DNA from: Candidatus Kaelpia aquatica
GTDB lineage: Bacteria; Omnitrophota; Gorgyraeia; Kaelpiales; Kaelpiaceae
Direction: 5' to 3'
Length of the DNA: 60,106 nt
Assembly: GCA_030765335.1 (NCBI GenBank)
Contig: JAVCCU010000026.1
Location: 1 to 60,106 of the forward strand
Both the position numbers and the translations under genes were made by a program. Position 1 is the stretch's first letter; every line of letters begins with the position of its first letter. The notes beneath the pieces were generated by a model that saw only the letters and a program-made list of their open reading frames with translations, was not told the origin of the DNA and ran no database searches. Shown here piece after piece: positions 776 to 60,106 of the stretch.

Positions 776-802
776 TTATAAAGAGGGGAATTGGTACAAA
801 AT

Positions 803-2392
803 ATGGTAAACCTAAAGACCAAGGGGATTATTTTATTCATAATGGGGGTTGTTTTGTTTTCTTGTCCTGCTCAGGCACGACGGATAAAAAAGGATACTTT
901 AAAATCCTCTGTTCAGAGATTATCAGTTTCTGAAGCACAGCAAGTGTTGTTGGGTAGCATAGTAACTATTCGGGATAATTTTCCACGCTTGATTGAAACT
1001 ACAAGAGAGGGTCTTTTAATTTATGAAACTGAAGGGCTTGATGCTTTTGAAGAAAAAGTCTGGAGTGATATTCAGGAAGCAAATAAAACCATTAAGGATG
1101 CAATAAACAGGATAAATGCTTTAAGTGGGTATATTGGTTTTGAAGCAGATCCGTTACGTCAAATGGTTGATGAATTTTTACAAGATATTGCTCATGAGAT
1201 GGAGACTGATAAAATTATGATTGGATTTGGTGGAGACTTTAGTTTTAATGTTACGTTTTCCTTAGGGTTGTCCGATTTAGAACACGCTCAATTTATTGAG
1301 GGATTAGAAGACATAGGCTATTATTTTCGTTCTCTAGAAAAAGGCTCAACTATGGATAGTACAGACTTAGAAAGCAAAGCTTTAAAAGGCCAGGAAGTAC
1401 TTCAATCGCTGGGCATACATTCAGGAGCTCATTATCAAGGGCATTTAACTTTAGACGCAAAAAAGTTGGTGTTTGAAGATTTTATCCAATATTTAATTGT
1501 TGGTAGAACTGAAGCTGGAATAAATCAAGGAGGTGAATTTAGCGATCAAGATTCACAAAGACTAGAAGCGTTAATAAGAGAGAGACTAGATGTTTTTCGT
1601 CAGATACGCAGTGCATTGTTTAAAGAGTGGGCTGGTTTCTGCTTACAGAGCACAATGGTAAAACATAGGGGTGGTGTGGATGAGTTAAACTTTAAGCTTA
1701 ATGCAACAATTGATTATTTGCCAAAATATTTGGAGGGAATGCGGAATGGAGGTTTAGATAACGCTGAACATGAAGAGCATTTTTTAAATATATTGCGTGT
1801 TTTTGCAAATTTAGAAAGCCCTGAATCATACCAAGCGTTTAATGATCTCAATACTTATATTGATTTAGTCAAAATGGGGATAGATTTTTCACCCCAAGAT
1901 ATTACGCCAGTGCTTAAAGAAAGAATTGAATATTTTAGAGGTCAAGTAGAGCAGAAAGGGCTTGATTATAAAATTGCAATTGGTGTTGAGGATGCGATTA
2001 TAAATTGCGATCTAAATCAAATAGCTTTTATAGTCGATACTCTTATAGAGAATGCTATAAAATACACTCCTCAAGGTGCTGTAAGAGTAGCAGTAACTCA
2101 AGAGCATGGTGAAATCGGTGATATAGTAGGATTATCAGGAACTCCTACTTGTGATTATTTGGAAATTATCGTCGGAGATACAGGTATCGGAATACCCAAG
2201 GAAGATATTTATAAGGTTGAGCATAGAGGTTTTAGAGCTGGTAATGTTGGTGAGATAGAAGGAACAGGGGTAGGTCTTGATTTAGCATACAATATTATTG
2301 CGTCGAATTTACATGGATTTATGACTATTGTATCAGAGTTAAACGAAGGCACTTGCGTAGTTATCAGACTTCCAATAGTAAGTAGTCCGTAA
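803..2392 (+). CDS. Leader-bearing histidine-kinase-like ATPase
   Basis: The 529-residue product starts with a hydrophobic leader ending PAQA before RRI. The C-terminal third is a HATPase_c domain with an N box (LIENAIKYTP, Asn about 417), a G1 box (DTGIGIP, Asp about 459) and a G2 box (GTGVGL, about 487). A classical H box is not evident; His288 in VKHRGG is the only candidate phospho-acceptor. No second membrane span and no receiver domain are visible. I chose the ATG at 803 over the in-frame TTG at 791 because the resulting leader aligns residue for residue, without gaps, with that of the next gene. It is first of three co-directional leader-bearing genes. A kinase-type ATPase behind an export leader is odd, since ATP should be absent outside. 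Confidence 0.75.
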   Translation: MVNLKTKGIILFIMGVVLFSCPAQARRIKKDTLKSSVQRLSVSEAQQVLLGSIVTIRDNFPRLIETTREGLLIYETEGLDAFEEKVWSDIQEANKTIKDAINRINALSGYIGFEADPLRQMVDEFLQDIAHEMETDKIMIGFGGDFSFNVTFSLGLSDLEHAQFIEGLEDIGYYFRSLEKGSTMDSTDLESKALKGQEVLQSLGIHSGAHYQGHLTLDAKKLVFEDFIQYLIVGRTEAGINQGGEFSDQDSQRLEALIRERLDVFRQIRSALFKEWAGFCLQSTMVKHRGGVDELNFKLNATIDYLPKYLEGMRNGGLDNAEHEEHFLNILRVFANLESPESYQAFNDLNTYIDLVKMGIDFSPQDITPVLKERIEYFRGQVEQKGLDYKIAIGVEDAIINCDLNQIAFIVDTLIENAIKYTPQGAVRVAVTQEHGEIGDIVGLSGTPTCDYLEIIVGDTGIGIPKEDIYKVEHRGFRAGNVGEIEGTGVGLDLAYNIIASNLHGFMTIVSELNEGTCVVIRLPIVSSP

Positions 2393-2409
2393 GATTTTTA
2401 AGAGGCATT

Positions 2410-3864
2410 ATGAAAAATACGCTTGTTAAGATGATTATTTTATTTATAGTGGGGACTATTTTATTTTCTTATCCTGCAGATGCGAGGAGGATAGGGACAG
2501 TAAAAATAATTAACTTAAGCCATGATTGGGCGCATAGTATGCCGCTTTACCAAGAGGCACAGAGATTAAAAGCAAAAGGTGATAAGGTTGGTTATTACAT
2601 AGCGATGTTTAGACATTTACGATACGAATACATTGAAGATATGCCAACACCAATTCTTTCTTCATTTAATTATGGATATAAAGTTAGAATTAATTATTTC
2701 CAAGCAGTCTTAGGTATATTAGACAGAGCTGTTAATGAAGAAATTATAAAAAGAGATGTTCTTATCCAAAAAATTAATGAATTCGACGAGCGAGAGTGGG
2801 GTTTCGACAGAGGAGAGCGGACTACCAAGGAAGATATAGAATACGTAGACTCTCTGTTAGATGAAGTCATTATCTACCTTGAACAGATAAACAGTGCCAC
2901 GAGTTATGGATATAGCATAGAGGAGGCCTGTGGATTTATGCACGCTATCATTGAATTAGATAGGCAGATGGAGCAACATATTGCTCAGGGAAATGAGGAC
3001 CAGATTAAAGCTAACTCTTTTGAAAGAACAATATATGCATCAATTCTTTCTGGCGCACGGCATGAGTACTGGCTAGATAGATTTAGATTTCGGAAAAGTG
3101 CTAGCGATGAACGTCCAAGTGAGTTAATTCAATCAAATACTCCAGAGTTGGATTTTAAAGCAAGAACAAGTTTTATAGCGATTCTTCGTTTTGAACTGGG
3201 ACTTGCACTTAAAGAAGGAGTTCTTGCAGGCGAAAGGATACAAAAGCTTGTAGATGAATTTAAAGCTCGTAAATTTAATGCCGGTAAAAAACTTCCGAAA
3301 ATTGACAGAAGAAAGTGGACTACTCTAGATGAAATAACTTATATGAATGAGGTATTAGAAAAAGTTGTTACCTATCTTGAACAAGTAAACAATGCCATGG
3401 GTTATGGATATAGTCTCTCATGGGCACAAAACATAATAGAATTACTTGGTAATGTAAGAGATGGCGAGGCAGAAGTCCTTCCAAGCTTAGCTATAAGATA
3501 CGAAGCGACGTTATCAGGAAATCTTCCTAAGCATACTTTATCAGAGTTTAGAAGTATAAAGGCTTATGACGATGTTCTTGTAGATGAATTTCTTCCTTCT
3601 GATGCAAAGCATAAGGCCAGAGGACGAGTCATTATTGGTATATCTCTTAGACTACAGAGAGCACTAAGAGAAGGTATTATTGTTGGCGATGAAATGGAAG
3701 CTCTCGTTAGAGAGTTTAAAAATAAAGAATGGAATTTCTCTGCTCATGAAGATTTATCTCCCGAAGACCCCAGAACATTTACAACACAAGAAGAGATTGA
3801 TTATATAAATAAAGTTTTAGATACAGTTATAGTTTATTTAATGGAAAGATATGAAATTAATTAA
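2410..3864 (+). CDS. Exported protein of three tandem helical repeats, function unknown
   Basis: This 484-residue protein is not recognised. Residues 1-28 form a leader with a hydrophobic core and a PADA site before RRI. The leader resembles the upstream gene in both protein and DNA, so the leaders are probably duplicates. The mature part is about three copies of a unit of roughly 155-165 residues. Each unit ends in a conserved block: TTKEDIEYVDSLLDEVIIYL near 138, TTLDEITYMNEVLEKVVTYL near 304 and TTQEEIDYINKVLDTVIVYL near 458. The first two blocks are followed by GYGYS-like turns. The units look all-helical and charged. The gene lies 17 bases after the kinase-like gene and overlaps the next one by 14 bases, so the three are probably co-transcribed. 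Confidence 0.65.
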   Translation: MKNTLVKMIILFIVGTILFSYPADARRIGTVKIINLSHDWAHSMPLYQEAQRLKAKGDKVGYYIAMFRHLRYEYIEDMPTPILSSFNYGYKVRINYFQAVLGILDRAVNEEIIKRDVLIQKINEFDEREWGFDRGERTTKEDIEYVDSLLDEVIIYLEQINSATSYGYSIEEACGFMHAIIELDRQMEQHIAQGNEDQIKANSFERTIYASILSGARHEYWLDRFRFRKSASDERPSELIQSNTPELDFKARTSFIAILRFELGLALKEGVLAGERIQKLVDEFKARKFNAGKKLPKIDRRKWTTLDEITYMNEVLEKVVTYLEQVNNAMGYGYSLSWAQNIIELLGNVRDGEAEVLPSLAIRYEATLSGNLPKHTLSEFRSIKAYDDVLVDEFLPSDAKHKARGRVIIGISLRLQRALREGIIVGDEMEALVREFKNKEWNFSAHEDLSPEDPRTFTTQEEIDYINKVLDTVIVYLMERYEIN

Positions 3865-5053
3865 ATTACCAATTTTAATTTTAGCAGCAATTAGCCTGCT
3901 CTTATCCAATCCTGCAGATGCGAGGAGGATTATTACTCCTCAAGAGGGACGAGTAGCTGAAATAACTGAGGTAGTACAGTGGTATTCAGGAATGTACGAC
4001 TATGTTATGTCTAATTATGAGCCAGATTCACTCCAGCATAGATTCTTTAAAGAAGTTCAAAATCCTAAGACTTGGGTTCTACATTCTGAATGGGGGCCGA
4101 GTTTAAAGTTAGATGAAATTGAGTATTGCGTAAGGATTTCTAAAATGACAATCCAAGAACTTTTAGAAGAATACAATGACCTTAATCCGGATCATTTTGT
4201 ACATCAATATATAGGCCAAACATTGACACAGCTTGAGGGCCTTTATTTTCGGGAGCATTTATTAGGAAGAACCATAGGTAGGATTAATAGCTATGATGAT
4301 ACATTAGAATCAATGCCAGAAATTTTAGCTGCTGATTCATTTTTTGAAGAGGAAGCTTTGTTAGCTAAAAAAAAGATACTTCTATTTCGTGAATGGGCAT
4401 ATAGGCATTGGAATGGAAAACCAAAAATAGTTTCTAGCTTAATTTTTAATCTTTCTTCACAAGATAAGGTAGGCTTGCCTCATGATTCCGATTTCCCTAA
4501 AACAGCCTTGCAGGTGTTAAGCAATGTTGAACCAATAATACCAGGGATGGAGGGATATTATTTATTACAAGAGCCCAATGGTGCACTCCTTACTTTCTTA
4601 GTTGAGGAGTTAAAAAGATTACCATTCAACGATGAGGTTGGACAAACTATTCTTATGAGAGATGATGCAAAAGAAGTTATTGATAAACTAATAATATACA
4701 TAGAGAGAAATATTGAAATAGTAGCTAATGGCGGAAAATGGAATGTTGATTCTTTTGATGAAATACGAGGTTTTTTTCAATCGGGATATCTAGAAACCTT
4801 CAAAAATGAGATATACGAAGATACTGATTTGGAAGGCATAGGTTATAATATCGATTTAGGAATAAATTATGGCGGTGGAATAATTGGAAATCCTTCTGAA
4901 TTTCGTATTAAATTAGAAAGATATTGTGTTCAGCAGAATCCTTTTCGAGTTACAACAAACGGCTCGATGGATCTACATCTTCTTTCTGGAGCTATGGTAG
5001 TTGATTTAAGTGAGATGGTTTTATCACAACCCCATACTCCTTTCGTTCCTTAA
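3851..5053 (+). CDS. Exported protein of unknown function
   Basis: This 400-residue product has a short leader (MKLIKLPILILAAISLLLS) followed by NPADARRI, the same site as in the two upstream genes. The DNA of that site repeats the upstream gene over about 20 bases. The mature part has no motif I recognise. It is mixed helical with many Glu, Lys and aromatic residues, and its Gly-rich stretch LGINYGGGIIGN lies near residues 334-345. The start overlaps the end of the preceding gene by 14 bases, which argues for translational coupling. The right direct repeat begins 16 bases after the stop, so this is the last gene of the cassette. Confidence 0.6.
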   Translation: MKLIKLPILILAAISLLLSNPADARRIITPQEGRVAEITEVVQWYSGMYDYVMSNYEPDSLQHRFFKEVQNPKTWVLHSEWGPSLKLDEIEYCVRISKMTIQELLEEYNDLNPDHFVHQYIGQTLTQLEGLYFREHLLGRTIGRINSYDDTLESMPEILAADSFFEEEALLAKKKILLFREWAYRHWNGKPKIVSSLIFNLSSQDKVGLPHDSDFPKTALQVLSNVEPIIPGMEGYYLLQEPNGALLTFLVEELKRLPFNDEVGQTILMRDDAKEVIDKLIIYIERNIEIVANGGKWNVDSFDEIRGFFQSGYLETFKNEIYEDTDLEGIGYNIDLGINYGGGIIGNPSEFRIKLERYCVQQNPFRVTTNGSMDLHLLSGAMVVDLSEMVLSQPHTPFVP

Positions 5054-35894: not shown

Positions 35895-38800
35895 ATGTTT
35901 TATATTATTTCATTTTTACTGGTAAGTATCGGTATAGCAGCTCTTCCGCTTATTGAAGGGGTAGGCTCTAGCCTGCTTCTTGCAGGTTCTATTTTTACTT
36001 TTGGCTTTGTATTGACGCAGCTGATTAAAATATTCCACTTTTCAAAAAATATTGCCAGAGCACTGTTGTTTATTGCTTCAATTGTTGGGGCTGGAGCATT
36101 TTTTACTTCAGGTAATTCTGGAGAGTGGGCAATCGTATGGTTGGTGTGGTATTTTATACTCTCTTTTCAGATTATAAGCATCTTTAGTTCTAAAGATGCA
36201 AAGAGCTGGTTCAGCTCCTATCTCCTGAGTTTTATTCAGCTTTCTCTGGGCGGTATTTTTACAGAAAAATTGTTTTTCTTGGTTATATTCTCTCTTTATT
36301 TAGCGTTGTCAGTATTTGGTTTTATTTTTCTGCTTCCTAAATTACAGATACGAGAAAAAATTTTAAAATTGATAAAACCCCGCCTAGATTTAGCAAGATG
36401 GGGCGCCTTAACAACTGTTAATGTCTTTTTTGTGACAGGGTTAGTTTTTCTCGTTCTACCAAGGACTCAAGATCCATTATTTGCAGTTAAAAAAGAGATG
36501 CATCTTGTTGAGAGGCTAAAAAAAGAAGTTGATTTTACAGAGGAAATGACAAAAGAGGAAGCTATGAGTTTGCCGGATGAGGTTGAGTTAGGAACTATAT
36601 CCGAATTAAAAAACGAAAATAAGATTCTAATGTTGGTAGAGACAGAGAAGCCATTTCTTTTTAAGGCCCAGACTTTTAACTATTATAACGGTAGTAACTG
36701 GATCAAGTATGGCAGTAAGCCTGTGGCTATCAGAGTTAAAGACGAGAAGATTAATTTTAAACCACTTTATTTAAGAAAAGAACTTTTTGCAAAAATGACT
36801 CCCGATAAGTTTTACCATCAAAAATTTTATATTAGGAATTATTCTCAAAATCTTATTTTAGGGTCGTATCCTATCATAAGTTTGTCTGGTTCAGGTATAG
36901 AAGAGATTAAGATAGATCATTTTGAAAATATTTATTTGCAGAGAAAGCTTAAATTTGGAGATGAATATGAGGTAGTCTCTGTCGACAAGAGCTATCCTTC
37001 CAATTATTTAAGATCATTGTCGAGGCAATATCCTAAAGAGATTATGGATCTATATCTTCAGCTTCCACCCGATTTAGATAAAAGATTAATGGATTTAACT
37101 TCTGAGATTTTAAAATATACTCCTCCCAATATCTATGATGAGTTAATTACGATTAGAAAATATTTAAAAGAGCATTGCGTTTATAGTAGGTTGACAGGCA
37201 AGAGCCCAACGCTCTATGAGTTTCTTTTTGATAAGAAGCCTGGCGATTGTGAATATTTTGCAACAGCCCTGGCTTTGATGTTGCGTTACCGCAATATTCC
37301 TACGCGGCTTATTGTAGGATTTTCAGGTGGAGAATTTGATTCTCAGAAGAGGACTTCTATAGTTTATGCTAAGAATGCCCATGCCTGGATAGAGGTTTTC
37401 TTTCCGACTATAGGTTGGTTGCCTTGCGATGCAACTCCTAAAGCTCTTCCTCAAGAGCAGTGGGAGGAAGAACCTAAGGTACTGGTCTTAAAACCTCAGA
37501 AAAGTTCAGAGGATAAAGGTTCTACTGGTGAAAGTAGTATTGAGAGCGGGTCTGGAGAGATTGCCTATTCGAAACAGAGTTCAGAGAGTGAGAGGATTAC
37601 CGAAGAGGGTGTTCCAGAAGAAGATCTCTTGCCAGAAGATTACTATTTTAAAGATAAGCTCTCTCAATATAGTCTTCCCAAGGAAGAGGCTGTCTTTTCT
37701 GGGGAGTTTTTTGAAGAAGCAGCTCCTGCTGAAGACAGCCTTGATTCAGGTTCTGAGCTGGAAGAAGAAGTTTCACCTGAAGAGCTGGCTGTTGAAGAGA
37801 GAGAGGCAGTTACTTTTGAAGAGGAGGCTGTCTCTAGCGAAAGTTTGCTGGATAAAAATTCTGTTTCTGAAGAGATCTTTGCAAAAGAAGAGACAGAGGA
37901 TTGGTTTTATAAAGAGGATAGTGTTTCAGAAGAGGGGGCAGCTGGAGAGGGGGTAGCTGAAGAAGAGCCTCAATTAGAAAAAGATGTTTTTGAGGAGATT
38001 ATATTTTCTGGAGAGGAAGAGGATCTTGCTGAAGAGTTAGAAGAGTCGATGGCTAAGGACATTGTTTCTACAGAAGAAGATCTGTTATCTTTTGCTCAAG
38101 GTGAAGACAAGGCCGAATTTACTGGATTAGAGTCTGAGATTGAAAAGGAAGAGAGTATTGTTGAGGAAGATAAGCTTGCCTTAGATGCCGAAGGTTTAGA
38201 AGAGGCTGTTCTGACTGAAGAACTCAAAGAAGAACAGGACGGTGAAGGATCTACCGAAGCGGATTCTCTAAAAGAGATTACGGATGAGATATCAAACGAG
38301 GGTTTTGCCGAAGAACAAGAAGAGAAAATGGATTCTCTCTCTGAAAGCGAAGAGGCCTCTGATAAGGAGTTCTTAGAAGAGGGGCTCTCTATTGAGGTAG
38401 ATGATGTCGAAGAGCTTGAAGATAGATCAACATCTTTAGTTCAGAGTTTTGAGGAAGATAAAACAGGAGATGTCTTTGAAGTGAAGCCTGAGGAGGATAG
38501 TTCTGGTATAGAGGAAGAGTCTACTGGGAGTCCTTCTGTAGAGGAAGAGATATCTGAGCCTGAAGACATCTCTGAAGAGCTATTATCTTCTAGTGAAAGT
38601 GGGATATCAGAAGAGGATCTGCTTGCTGATGAAGGTTTGGTTGTTGAAGACAGCGCTCCATTAGAAGAAGAGATGCTTCCGAGTCAGGAGATTCAGGTTG
38701 AGAATTTGATTGCTGAGGAAGATGTTTTATCTGAGTCGTACTTGTTGCCCAAAGATACTTTAGCGGCTGAAGAAAAGGAAGAAATAAGTGGGAGTGCAGA

Positions 38801-39854
38801 CTCAGAAGATAGAGAAGAAGAGATTATTTCTGATCTTGAAATTATTGATGAGGGATCTCTTTTTGAAGAGGGTGTGATTTCAGAAGAGATGCCAGCAGAA
38901 GATGTATTTTTAGAAGAAGATATTAGTTTAGAAGAGGTTAGAGATGTTCTTTTTGACGAAAAGCTGGCCTCAGAAGAACTGCCTGAAGAGTTAGAAGAAG
39001 AGGTTTTTGAGAAAGATGTTGTTTTTGAGCCCGATCTAAAGAGCTTGAAAGAGGAGCCCCTTGATGATGTTGTTGAGATAATTGAAGATAAATTAATGTC
39101 TGAGGGGATTGAAGGTAAGATAGAAGATTATTTAGTTGAAAATATTCTTTTTGATGATGATTTTGAAAAATTAATTGCTGATCAAAGCTTAACAGAGGTT
39201 GAAGATGTTATAGAGGATGATTTTGAGATCGAAGAACTTTCTGCTGAAGATATGATTCCTGATGATGATTTGACTTCAGGTGAGATGAGCTTATTATTTA
39301 AGATTTTGAAAGATAAGCTCAAAGAGTGGGTTTTTGGGTTCTCTTATTATACTCAGGCTCTAATAGTGGATTTTATTAAGGGAATATTTGGAGGAATTAA
39401 AGATTTTCTTTATGGTGTAGGTGCTAATATTTATAATCATCTTAAAAACAACAGAAATCCGTATGCTCTATCTTTTGTCACTATTATTGTAGTATATCTC
39501 CTGTGGACATTTTTAAAGGAATTAATCAGAAAGAAGAAGGAGAAGCAGCAGGTGCGCAGATTGTTTCCCCAGAAAAAGCTTACTAAAGAAGAGAAGAAGG
39601 TTAGGAATTTCTATTTTCAGGTATTAGATCTTTTAGCTAAAGCAGGCTATAAGAGGCTACCAAATTTAACGCCGCGTGAATTTTCTCATCAAATTATCAG
39701 TAAAGGTTTTAGTATTTCAAAAGATTTCTACCATCTCACAGATATGTTTTATAGAATAAGTTTTGGTCAAATTGAGCTTGAGGTACAGGAGTTAAGAAAA
39801 GTTGATCTTATCACAGCTTCAATTAGAGAATGGACCAAAGAGACAAGACGCTAG
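35895..39854 (+). CDS. Large membrane transglutaminase with a long acidic insertion
   Basis: A 1319-residue protein of the TgpA/DUF3488 type. The N-terminus has several membrane segments (about residues 1-190). A periplasmic transglutaminase-like domain follows, with the triad Cys452 (PGDCEYFATA), His496 (NAHAWIEVF) and Asp512 (LPCDATP). Residues of about 540-1130 are an extraordinary Glu/Asp/Ser/Leu-rich low-complexity stretch with loosely repeated SEEE-type blocks. A second membrane span lies near 1190 (LSFVTIIVVYLLW), and a C-terminal DUF4129-like domain (YKRLPNLTPREFS) ends the protein. Typical relatives are 650-750 residues, so the acidic region accounts for the excess. The other-frame open stretches inside it are shadows of the repetitive GAAGAG codons. 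Confidence 0.88.
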   Translation: MFYIISFLLVSIGIAALPLIEGVGSSLLLAGSIFTFGFVLTQLIKIFHFSKNIARALLFIASIVGAGAFFTSGNSGEWAIVWLVWYFILSFQIISIFSSKDAKSWFSSYLLSFIQLSLGGIFTEKLFFLVIFSLYLALSVFGFIFLLPKLQIREKILKLIKPRLDLARWGALTTVNVFFVTGLVFLVLPRTQDPLFAVKKEMHLVERLKKEVDFTEEMTKEEAMSLPDEVELGTISELKNENKILMLVETEKPFLFKAQTFNYYNGSNWIKYGSKPVAIRVKDEKINFKPLYLRKELFAKMTPDKFYHQKFYIRNYSQNLILGSYPIISLSGSGIEEIKIDHFENIYLQRKLKFGDEYEVVSVDKSYPSNYLRSLSRQYPKEIMDLYLQLPPDLDKRLMDLTSEILKYTPPNIYDELITIRKYLKEHCVYSRLTGKSPTLYEFLFDKKPGDCEYFATALALMLRYRNIPTRLIVGFSGGEFDSQKRTSIVYAKNAHAWIEVFFPTIGWLPCDATPKALPQEQWEEEPKVLVLKPQKSSEDKGSTGESSIESGSGEIAYSKQSSESERITEEGVPEEDLLPEDYYFKDKLSQYSLPKEEAVFSGEFFEEAAPAEDSLDSGSELEEEVSPEELAVEEREAVTFEEEAVSSESLLDKNSVSEEIFAKEETEDWFYKEDSVSEEGAAGEGVAEEEPQLEKDVFEEIIFSGEEEDLAEELEESMAKDIVSTEEDLLSFAQGEDKAEFTGLESEIEKEESIVEEDKLALDAEGLEEAVLTEELKEEQDGEGSTEADSLKEITDEISNEGFAEEQEEKMDSLSESEEASDKEFLEEGLSIEVDDVEELEDRSTSLVQSFEEDKTGDVFEVKPEEDSSGIEEESTGSPSVEEEISEPEDISEELLSSSESGISEEDLLADEGLVVEDSAPLEEEMLPSQEIQVENLIAEEDVLSESYLLPKDTLAAEEKEEISGSADSEDREEEIISDLEIIDEGSLFEEGVISEEMPAEDVFLEEDISLEEVRDVLFDEKLASEELPEELEEEVFEKDVVFEPDLKSLKEEPLDDVVEIIEDKLMSEGIEGKIEDYLVENILFDDDFEKLIADQSLTEVEDVIEDDFEIEELSAEDMIPDDDLTSGEMSLLFKILKDKLKEWVFGFSYYTQALIVDFIKGIFGGIKDFLYGVGANIYNHLKNNRNPYALSFVTIIVVYLLWTFLKELIRKKKEKQQVRRLFPQKKLTKEEKKVRNFYFQVLDLLAKAGYKRLPNLTPREFSHQIISKGFSISKDFYHLTDMFYRISFGQIELEVQELRKVDLITASIREWTKETRR

Positions 39855-57443: not shown

Positions 57444-57497
57444 TACTTTAGGCTTGGTAGTTTAGAGTTTATAGAGTAACTAGAAAGGAGGAGGGCA

Positions 57498-60106
57498 ATG
57501 AGGTATTCCAGATTTTTGGTAGTAATTCTTTTCGTAGTTTCCTTAGTAATATCCCAAGTAGGATTTCAAAGTCAGGATGTATGTCGTAGGGTTCAAACAG
57601 GTGAATTCTTAGATGTAATTCAATTATCTGTTTTACCTGTAATAGATAATATTGACGGTGTTGTTAGAGTTAATATAAGACTTACAGGGGGAGTTAAGGG
57701 AGACGCTGCGACTTTGACTACTTTTGCTGCTTTTATTCGATCTATTGCTCATAATAAAGATATTGAAGTAGCAAGTATTACTACAATTAGTTCTGCAGAA
57801 AACATTGCTCATTTGATACAAACTTGTGATTCGTTGGGGCCTTGGAGAGGTGTCAGTGTTACAGCTGACGGGTCTGATGTTGTAATCAATAGCACAGGAG
57901 AAGAAATAAGGATCCCCGTAATTAATCTTGGCGATGTTTTTAGCGCTGATATTTGTATGATTATAGGACCTCTTGCACAAGAGCTAAGTATCACCCCAGA
58001 GCAGCTGGGAGTCCAAAGAATAATTGCCGTAGTGACTGGACTTGATCCAATAGATCTGTATGAAGAGGCAGAAAGTGCTCGTATTCCCGGTGAAATTTCC
58101 GAGGATGATGATATGGCGACTGTTCCTGTCTCAGAAATTGCTGGACTTGGGATTGTTCTAGGAGCTATAGATAACAATTTAGGCAATGTTAATCTTTCTA
58201 GAGCAAATCTCTTTTTGCCTCAGGGTGATATGGCAATAAGACCGCTATCTGATGAGATAGATTTATCTGGAATGTTGGAAAAATTACACCTTCAAAATAC
58301 TGGTGCTTCGCTTCATGTTACTGAAGTATCTGGCGCAATACAAGGAGCGCGTAGAGTGGAGGCGATTTTAACTGTTAATGGCAATGTGTTAGAGAGTGAT
58401 TTAATTGCACTTTTCAACATTACTTCTAATATAAGCGTAGCTTCTCAAGATGTATCAACTTCATCGATGTTTAATAGTCCGTATGAAACTTCTTCTTTTA
58501 TATTAGATCCCGAACAAACTTCTTTAACTCAAATGGACGGCTATACTCGCATTACATTATGCGGATGGGTTGGGAATTATTCCATGGCAGGTATGGTTAT
58601 AGATTCAGTTACAGAAGTAGGTAGGCAGCTTGCAGAAAGTAATCTGCTTTCAACTCAAGATGCAATAACCGTCTATCCTAACTTAGATTATCCATTAAAA
58701 AGCGTTCTTTCAAGAGCAAGGTCAGTTATGATAAATGGTGCTGCAGGAAGAATTGGTAGAAATATTCTAAGAATACTTAAAAGCACCTTTAATGATAGTG
58801 AATCTGATTGGGATCTTGTCGCAGTAAATGGTGTCAGAAGCGCAGCAGCGCTTGTAGATGCGTTAACAAACGATGAAGTATTGGGTCCTGTAAATGCTCA
58901 GATTGAAATAGGTAGTACTACAGTAGAGATTCCCAGATTAGATCTTAAGCATTATGTGGATGTTGACGGGCAGAGGCATTATGTATCAGGTAAAAATGAA
59001 GCAAACCGTTTAGCAGACACCCTTCGTAGCCAATTTGAAGGTAGAGAGATAGAGGCAGATATAGCTATCGGGGAACTACTTAGCCCGCAGGAAGATATGG
59101 TTGAGGTTGAAGTTGAATATGTAGAGGTAAATGGGAATAGGATATATATCTTTAATGAGCGTGAAGATACCTACATAAGTACTCGATTACCGTATTTATT
59201 TGAAGCTTTAGATTTAGAGATGGATTTTATGTGGGAGGCTTCCGGTAATTACAAATCTCCCGATAGGGTAAAGCCGTTTTTGGATGCAGGATTTCAACGT
59301 ATTGGTATTACTGCTCCGGCATCAGGGGGAATAATTCAGATAGTTGTTGGGGTTAATGATGGTAAATTGCTAGAAGTATTTCAAGATAGCGGAATTCCTA
59401 CTGTAGTTTCAAGCGGTTCTTGTACGACAAATAATGTTGCTCCAGTTGCTCAAGCTTTCGTTGATATGCTTGCTGAAGAAGGAACATCTATTGTCCGAGT
59501 AATCGATTTAAAAACTATTCATGCCGGTACTCAGACCCAAGCCGGATTATTACCTCAGCAGTTAAAAAACCCTTCTAAGGCCGATCGTATCAGAGCAGCA
59601 GTAACTAATATTGTTCCGACAACAACTGGTGCAGCTAAAGTATTACCTGATATTATTGAAGGCGTAGATACTATATTAGGTTCTGCACTTCGTGTAGGTA
59701 ATCCTAATGGTTCTGAGACTGAAGTCGTATTTTATTTAGACGGCATATGTACATTGAGCAAAGAAGAGATAATTGCAAATCTGCAGTTTCGTGCTAGAAC
59801 AGATATGCTAAATGTGTTAGCGGTAAATACTGGTATACATTTAAGCTCTTCTGATATTAACGGAGCAGATGTTACATCTATCGTTGAAGCAGATTCTATC
59901 GATATTGTTCCCATATATGATGGTGCAAATAACCATGTTTCCGATGCCATCGTGGTAAATACCTGGTACGACAATGAATTTGGATATACACGTCAATTTA
60001 TGCGCACTATGACGATGTGGGCTCTTCTGGAAGAAAATCCTGGATTAACCAGAGAAGAGTTACTTGATATATCCAACGTGCTAGGTGAGAATGCTTATGT
60101 TCCAGG
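57498..60106 (+). CDS. Leader-bearing tandem GAPDH-like protein (3' end outside window)
   Basis: An uninterrupted frame from ATG 57498, seven bases after AAGGAGG, runs off the right edge (at least 869 residues). Residues 1-20 form a hydrophobic leader (RFLVVILFVVSLVI), followed by CRRV near 29-32. Domain 1 (about 45-400) has the GAPDH layout (DIEVASIT, ENIAHL, FNSPYETSS and GWVGNYS where GAPDH has WYDNE) but lacks the glycine loop and the catalytic Cys motif. Domain 2 (from about 409) keeps both. Its loop NGAAGRIGR is at 413-421, SCTTN has Cys642, KTIHAGT has His675, IVPTTTGAAK follows, and WYDNEFGYT starts at Trp823. The loop is GxxGxxG rather than the usual GxGxxG of NGFGRIGR. GAPDH oxidises glyceraldehyde-3-phosphate with NAD in the cytoplasm, so a leader and an inactive-looking twin are both unusual. 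Further domains may lie beyond the window. Confidence 0.88.
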   Translation, partial: MRYSRFLVVILFVVSLVISQVGFQSQDVCRRVQTGEFLDVIQLSVLPVIDNIDGVVRVNIRLTGGVKGDAATLTTFAAFIRSIAHNKDIEVASITTISSAENIAHLIQTCDSLGPWRGVSVTADGSDVVINSTGEEIRIPVINLGDVFSADICMIIGPLAQELSITPEQLGVQRIIAVVTGLDPIDLYEEAESARIPGEISEDDDMATVPVSEIAGLGIVLGAIDNNLGNVNLSRANLFLPQGDMAIRPLSDEIDLSGMLEKLHLQNTGASLHVTEVSGAIQGARRVEAILTVNGNVLESDLIALFNITSNISVASQDVSTSSMFNSPYETSSFILDPEQTSLTQMDGYTRITLCGWVGNYSMAGMVIDSVTEVGRQLAESNLLSTQDAITVYPNLDYPLKSVLSRARSVMINGAAGRIGRNILRILKSTFNDSESDWDLVAVNGVRSAAALVDALTNDEVLGPVNAQIEIGSTTVEIPRLDLKHYVDVDGQRHYVSGKNEANRLADTLRSQFEGREIEADIAIGELLSPQEDMVEVEVEYVEVNGNRIYIFNEREDTYISTRLPYLFEALDLEMDFMWEASGNYKSPDRVKPFLDAGFQRIGITAPASGGIIQIVVGVNDGKLLEVFQDSGIPTVVSSGSCTTNNVAPVAQAFVDMLAEEGTSIVRVIDLKTIHAGTQTQAGLLPQQLKNPSKADRIRAAVTNIVPTTTGAAKVLPDIIEGVDTILGSALRVGNPNGSETEVVFYLDGICTLSKEEIIANLQFRARTDMLNVLAVNTGIHLSSSDINGADVTSIVEADSIDIVPIYDGANNHVSDAIVVNTWYDNEFGYTRQFMRTMTMWALLEENPGLTREELLDISNVLGENAYVP

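Follow-up and report, generated by a model that had tools for sequence, protein, structure and literature searches.

The window analyzed here is a stretch of 60,106 nucleotides from Candidatus Kaelpia aquatica (Omnitrophota; Gorgyraeia), and it makes up the whole of one contig (C26) of the genome labeled G000 in our sample of the class. At position 57498 of the forward strand an open reading frame (ORF) begins that is still open at the contig end (57498–60104 inside the window), and it encodes a protein with a hydrophobic leader followed by two GAPDH-derived domains in series, referred to here as the tandem GAPDH (Table 1). The original prediction, made from the letters of the window, had described a degenerate first domain, an intact second domain and an export-type leader that would place the enzyme outside the cytoplasm.

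Structure of the tandem GAPDH

The gene was completed by extending the contig, as had been proposed for finding the C-terminus. The reverse complement of contig C17 matches the last 127 bp of the window exactly, a typical graph overlap, and adds the residues GQP and a stop codon, which closes the protein at 872 residues. A Shine-Dalgarno sequence (AAAGGAGG) lies 6 nt 5' of the ATG, and there is no second Met before residue 154. The claim that the gene has its own strong promoter fared less evenly: a TTGACA-N17-TATAAA sequence lies upstream (one match in the window, with 0.03 expected), but a stricter promoter scan of the window does not list it, because of the last A in its -10 hexamer. A search of related genomes for the fused architecture found it in one genome of the same family (G004) and in one of another family of the class (G061), so the tandem arrangement is not an artificial fusion made in assembly. 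The interruption at the window end and the degenerate state of domain 1 could speak for a decaying duplicate or an assembly artefact; we consider this highly improbable, given the exact overlap that completes the gene, the recurrence of the architecture in two other genomes, a reading frame free of stops and the catalytic residues kept in domain 2.

Domain 1 was difficult to recognize from a single sequence, which gave a weak Gp_dh_N match only (E = 0.013). A profile of the three orthologues, however, matched GAPDH chains in 32 of its 34 PDB matches (best E = 5.6e-7), collinear with GAPDH in an N-terminal stretch (on 16–82) and a C-terminal stretch (on 240–323), and hhalign aligned the domain to housekeeping GAPDH over 292 columns (E = 2.4e-6). 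These matches identify domain 1 as a relative of GAPDH, and the alternative that it is unrelated, which the original prediction had named as a result that would speak against it, was rejected on the same values. Comparison of the orthologues found no conserved Cys or His and no Gly loop. By its sequence, then, domain 1 is a pseudo-GAPDH domain, GAPDH-derived but degenerate as first described.

Domain 2 carries the best-matching stretches for both Pfam families of GAPDH, with whole-protein scores of 47.1 bits for Gp_dh_N (gathering score 31.7; residues 409–478) and 49.6 bits for Gp_dh_C (gathering score 24.4; residues 671–800). The active-site Cys, His and WYDNEFGY stretch lie where they had been located, and all catalytic Cys, His and phosphate-site residues of Type I GAPDH are present. 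Invariant positions were defined from 17 housekeeping GAPDHs of the class; among those with a catalytic or ligand role, domain 2 keeps 20/21, compared to 29/52 of the other invariants (Fisher p = 8e-4). Such selective retention is expected if catalysis is under selection, and the tandem GAPDH is probably catalytic via domain 2. It is not an ordinary Type I enzyme (TIGR01534; PF00044 and PF02800), despite sharing both Pfam domains and the Cys, His, phosphate-site and WYDNE residues: domain 2 scores 167.8 bits against the TIGR01534 equivalog cut-off of 367.2 and reaches the cut-off of no NCBI equivalog model, and the protein differs further in its leader, its pseudo-domain in tandem, an insertion and a C-terminal extension in domain 2, and the loss of Asp32. 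Asp32, which in classical GAPDH forms a hydrogen bond to the adenosine 2'-hydroxyl of NAD (PMC3728087), is the sole invariant catalytic or ligand residue missing. Its position is Gly in the window's protein and in G061 and Ala in G004, and none of the seven GAPDH domains compared from leader-bearing proteins or giant ORFs keeps it (Gly, Ala or Tyr stands there instead). The loss suggests that domain 2 handles its cofactor differently from classical GAPDH. NADP specificity was considered and not called, as Asp32 is gone yet Pro188 is apparently kept in two of the three copies.

Each of the three genomes with a tandem GAPDH also encodes an ordinary leaderless GAPDH, and separate leaderless PGK, PFK and TIM exist. 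The domain 2 copies form one clade (support 99/98) outside housekeeping GAPDH. Within it the window's copy and that of G061 are sisters and G004 lies outside, contrary to the family assignment and on long branches; given this conflict, the phylogeny points to transfer or old paralogy as the likely history. No named relatives were found among the genome and viral contig collections searched. As to the class itself, the target of the OP3-565 probe (sequence from PMC13153191) is exact in the small-subunit ribosomal RNA of G057, G145 and G345 and has one mismatch in G061, placing the class in Omnitrophota; this holds for the class and not for the window's genome itself, whose assembly has no match with up to two mismatches.

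The leader and its Arg-Arg tag

The hydrophobic leader of the tandem GAPDH is present as first described, with a positive n-region and a hydrophobic core; no AxA site lies beside it. Behind it stands CRRVQT, an instance of an RR[VI][KHRQ][TS] motif. We assessed how common such tags are in a sample of contig stretches, counting Arg-Arg within 32 residues C-terminal of the hydrophobic core and comparing this with the per-stretch rate in protein bodies. Arg-Arg follows the leader in 17/54 single-leader proteins of the window's genome, compared to 6% per body stretch (p = 1e-8), in 10/24 in G061 (p = 2e-6) and in 5/6 in G004. The positions after Arg-Arg, which played no part in selecting the tagged proteins, are also constrained: V or I at the first (25/34, versus 39/232; p = 5e-11), K or H at the second (20/34, versus 14/232; p = 1e-12) and T at the third (12/34, versus 10/232; p = 7e-7), with the limit that some tagged proteins are paralogues and the counts are not fully independent. 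Two leaders that are 75% identical over 32 residues stand on unrelated bodies, one a histidine-kinase-type ATPase (791–2392 of the window) and the other a GNAT acetyltransferase (L102:8530-10401), which fits a reusable address tag. Most tagged leaders carry more positive charge on the N-flank than on the C-flank, a balance that favors a body outside the cytoplasm.

Tagged proteins also occur elsewhere. At the left contig end of the window, three lie side by side (791–5053), two of them without a family above cut-off, and a leader-bearing, Arg-Arg-containing protein of G004 (L053:195-926) has leucine-rich-repeat matches.

Leader-bearing glycolytic enzymes in the class

The next gene on contig C17 begins about 170 bp after the tandem GAPDH stop. 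Beside the tandem GAPDH, the window's genome encodes a leader-bearing protein that joins class II aldolase, containing a helix-hairpin-helix insert, to phosphofructokinase (FBA-PFK). Next comes another leader-bearing protein, whose match to a PEP-utiliser mobile domain is weak. A 773-residue tagged protein (L012:8523-10844) has a weak match to this domain as its sole Pfam match, with a TAH motif like that of the phosphocarrier His. A leader-bearing PFK comes after the tandem GAPDH in G004, and a leader-bearing aldolase is present in G002, of the same genus as the window's genome. In G061, most of the longer genes in a run of about 42 kb (contig C1, 42899–84870; L049, L043, L050) bear a leader and then Arg-Arg. 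This run includes PGI, PGK, the tandem GAPDH, aldolase, PFK and a PPDK whose two parts are encoded by separate leader-bearing genes, along with CofD-like, weakly ROK-like, 6-phosphogluconolactonase-type, PRPP-synthase-type, methyltransferase and aminotransferase proteins; a subtilase in it has a leader without Arg-Arg. The leader of the tandem GAPDH is a tag that a whole group of glycolytic and further cytosolic-type enzymes share, a larger point that the original prediction did not reach. The leader-bearing PFK and FBA retain most active-site motifs. The PFK also has a pyrophosphate-type signature (GGDD, and K before T/S-[IM]-D), which we dropped as a clue to location because it is found in the housekeeping paralogue as well.

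Other genomes of the class have large ORFs in which several glycolytic domains follow one another (Table 1 gives examples, among others), with signal-peptide-like starts wherever the start is covered (all listed by genome except G204 and G179). Giant ORFs of Omnitrophota have been described as having few annotated domains (PMC10066038), in a text containing neither "glyceraldehyde" nor "signal peptide". The tandem GAPDH resembles them in phylum, in being a long leader-bearing protein and, for G154 and G345, in having two successive GAPDH domains, but it is a free-standing gene.

These enzymes might instead stay in the cytoplasm, with an uncleaved leader anchoring a glycolytic complex on the cytoplasmic face of the inner membrane and Arg-Arg marking that side. 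The position of Arg-Arg behind the hydrophobic stretch would fit, the cytoplasm supplies cofactors, and the linked FBA, PFK, GAPDH and PGK would form a metabolon. We regard such an anchor as unlikely, considering the charge bias of the flanks, the resemblance of the ADARR-type leaders to ordinary cleavable signal peptides, and the plain AxA-type signals at the start of the related giant ORFs.

As a separate feature of the window, a 1319-residue ORF (35895–39854) has a long, very acidic Glu/Ser-rich middle stretch.

Table 1. Positions of the tandem GAPDH, its parts and other leader-bearing proteins in the window, with large glycolytic ORFs elsewhere in the class
Feature	Position	Strand	Basis or remark
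Promoter-like TTGACA-N17-TATAAA	57415..57443	+	
Shine-Dalgarno sequence	57484..57491	+	sequence
Tandem GAPDH gene	57498..60106	+	869/872 codons in window; final 3 and stop on contig C17
Hydrophobic leader, residues 1-23	57498..57566	+	sequence
Post-leader tag CRRVQT, residues 29-34	57582..57599	+	motif comparison
Domain 1 (about residues 45-400), degenerate	57630..58697	+	profile comparison
Domain 2 (residues 409-869), intact catalytic residues, C-terminal extension	58722..60104	+	Pfam, residue comparison
NGAAGRIG dinucleotide loop, residues 413-420	58734..58757	+	residue alignment
Gly445 replacing NAD-binding Asp32	58830..58832	+	residue comparison
Domain 2 insertion (about residues 478-541), far shorter in orthologues	58929..59120	+	alignment
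Catalytic Cys642 (SCTTN)	59421..59423	+	residue comparison
Catalytic His675	59520..59522	+	residue comparison
Substrate-phosphate Arg732 (Arg231 of classical GAPDH)	59691..59693	+	residue comparison
WYDNE motif, residues 823-827	59964..59978	+	residue comparison
Exact overlap with end of contig C17	59980..60106	+	C17 holds gene remainder and leader-bearing FBA-PFK gene
Leader and Arg-Arg protein (PAQARRIKK), histidine-kinase-type ATPase domain	791..2392	+	Pfam, leader scan
Leader and Arg-Arg protein (PADARRI), no family above cut-off	2410..3864	+	Pfam, leader scan
Leader and Arg-Arg protein (PADARRI), no family	3851..5053	+	Pfam, leader scan
Multi-domain glycolytic large ORFs	L044:6983-15958; L145:1-9207; L144:4215-11015; L149:2120-7699; L150:2666-12232		about 1.9-3.2 thousand residues
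Giant ORF, G154			GAPDH-GAPDH-PGK-enolase-aldolase
Giant ORF, G345			GAPDH-GAPDH-acyl-CoA dehydrogenase
Giant ORF, G071			GAPDH-TIM-PEPCK
Giant ORF, G193			TIM-aldolase-enolase
Giant ORF, G204			PPDK-TIM-aldolase-enolase; start not covered
Giant ORF, G312			aldolase-PFK-GAPDH
Giant ORF, G194			hexokinase-aldolase
Giant ORF, G179			PGM-PGI-aldolase; start not covered

A proposed glycolytic set outside the cytoplasm

We favor, at somewhat better than even confidence, reading the tandem GAPDH as a paralogue distinct from the housekeeping enzyme and adapted to function beyond the cytoplasm. The leader would send the protein across or into the inner membrane, and the RR[VI][KH]T tag may be the signal for a step, processing or sorting, that acts on many other proteins as well. 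Domain 2 would be the working catalytic domain with altered cofactor binding, and domain 1 a decayed GAPDH copy, most likely standing in for a partner subunit and stabilizing domain 2 as a fixed intramolecular pair; the original prediction had suggested that it might fix a dimer or sense substrate. The protein would act together with the leader-bearing aldolase and phosphofructokinase encoded beside it, as a member of a presumed extracytoplasmic glycolytic set found in several Omnitrophota lineages. Of the original prediction, the two GAPDH-derived domains, the leader and the absence of artificial fusion all stood; placement outside the cytoplasm gains indirect support from the charge bias, the many paralogues with similar leaders and the leader shared by unrelated bodies, with export itself still an inference.

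Several points weigh against this reading. The tandem GAPDH occurs in 3 of the 384 sampled genomes of the class. Arg-Arg shortly after a hydrophobic core disfavors Sec export in classical cases. The idea of an intramolecular pair draws nothing from single-sequence AlphaFold models of the two domains, which were too poor to use (pLDDT 39 and 35). The leader-bearing PGK is eroded, with HGSD in place of HRAH, and no leader-bearing TIM was found in G000, G004 or G061; together these indicate that the pathway is not complete, and a complete exported glycolysis, with a single enolase in G000, is unsupported. Lastly, we know of no cofactor supply outside the cytoplasm, which argues either for enzymes at work within a host or prey cell or for protein bodies kept in the cytoplasm.

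The eroded PGK, the non-catalytic GAPDH fold of domain 1 and the giant ORFs that string glycolytic domains together could also be explained if glycolytic folds had been reused as adhesins or structural modules in a non-catalytic surface protein. GAPDH, enolase and PGK moonlight on the surface of other bacteria, where the surface GAPDH is the leaderless housekeeping enzyme. The case described here is similar in having, as its sequence suggests, a GAPDH outside the cytoplasm, and differs in having a dedicated leader-bearing paralogue beside the housekeeping enzyme. A non-catalytic role seems to us quite unlikely, as domain 2 selectively keeps its catalytic residues and the leader-bearing PFK and FBA keep most of their active-site motifs.

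Under the favored extracytoplasmic reading, we conjecture that the site of action would most plausibly be one that supplies the NAD(P), phosphates and sugar phosphates on which these enzymes depend, such as the inside or the lysate of a host or prey cell. A special case, differing in destination alone, is that the tagged proteins are secreted effectors that enter a host or prey cell and redirect its sugar metabolism. Cofactors exist in such a cell, the tagged set mixes cytosolic-type enzymes (GNAT, methyltransferase, aminotransferase and kinase-type), and a host-dependent or predatory lifestyle has been reported for Omnitrophota (PMC10066038). Even so, an effector role is improbable in our estimate, since no sign of a secretion system, host or delivery appears in the present data, and a Sec-type leader takes a protein no further than the periplasm if there is no second step. 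More broadly, we offer as a tentative possibility that some Omnitrophota run a second glycolytic set, tagged by leader and RR[VI][KH]T, outside their own cytoplasm on host or prey sugar phosphates, encoded by separate genes in certain lineages and as multi-enzyme giant proteins elsewhere.

Glycolysis is a textbook cytoplasmic pathway, and to our knowledge relocated glycolysis is known so far from eukaryotes (glycosomes and stramenopile mitochondria). The mitochondrial TPI-GAPDH fusion of stramenopiles (PMC3527533, PMC6198282) is alike in being an enzyme fusion and in using an N-terminal targeting sequence that moves glycolytic enzymes to another compartment, whereas the Omnitrophota case is bacterial, has a pseudo-GAPDH and no TPI as the fusion partner, and has a hydrophobic leader with an Arg-Arg tag. 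In the open-access literature we found neither a tandem GAPDH nor an exported glycolytic set described for bacteria. A bacterium that has a normal set and, beside it, a diverged one tagged by leaders would extend relocated glycolysis to bacteria. The common RR[VI][KH]T tag would offer a way to study a sorting step not yet described and the range of proteins that Omnitrophota export, a matter tied to their feeding or dependence on other cells.
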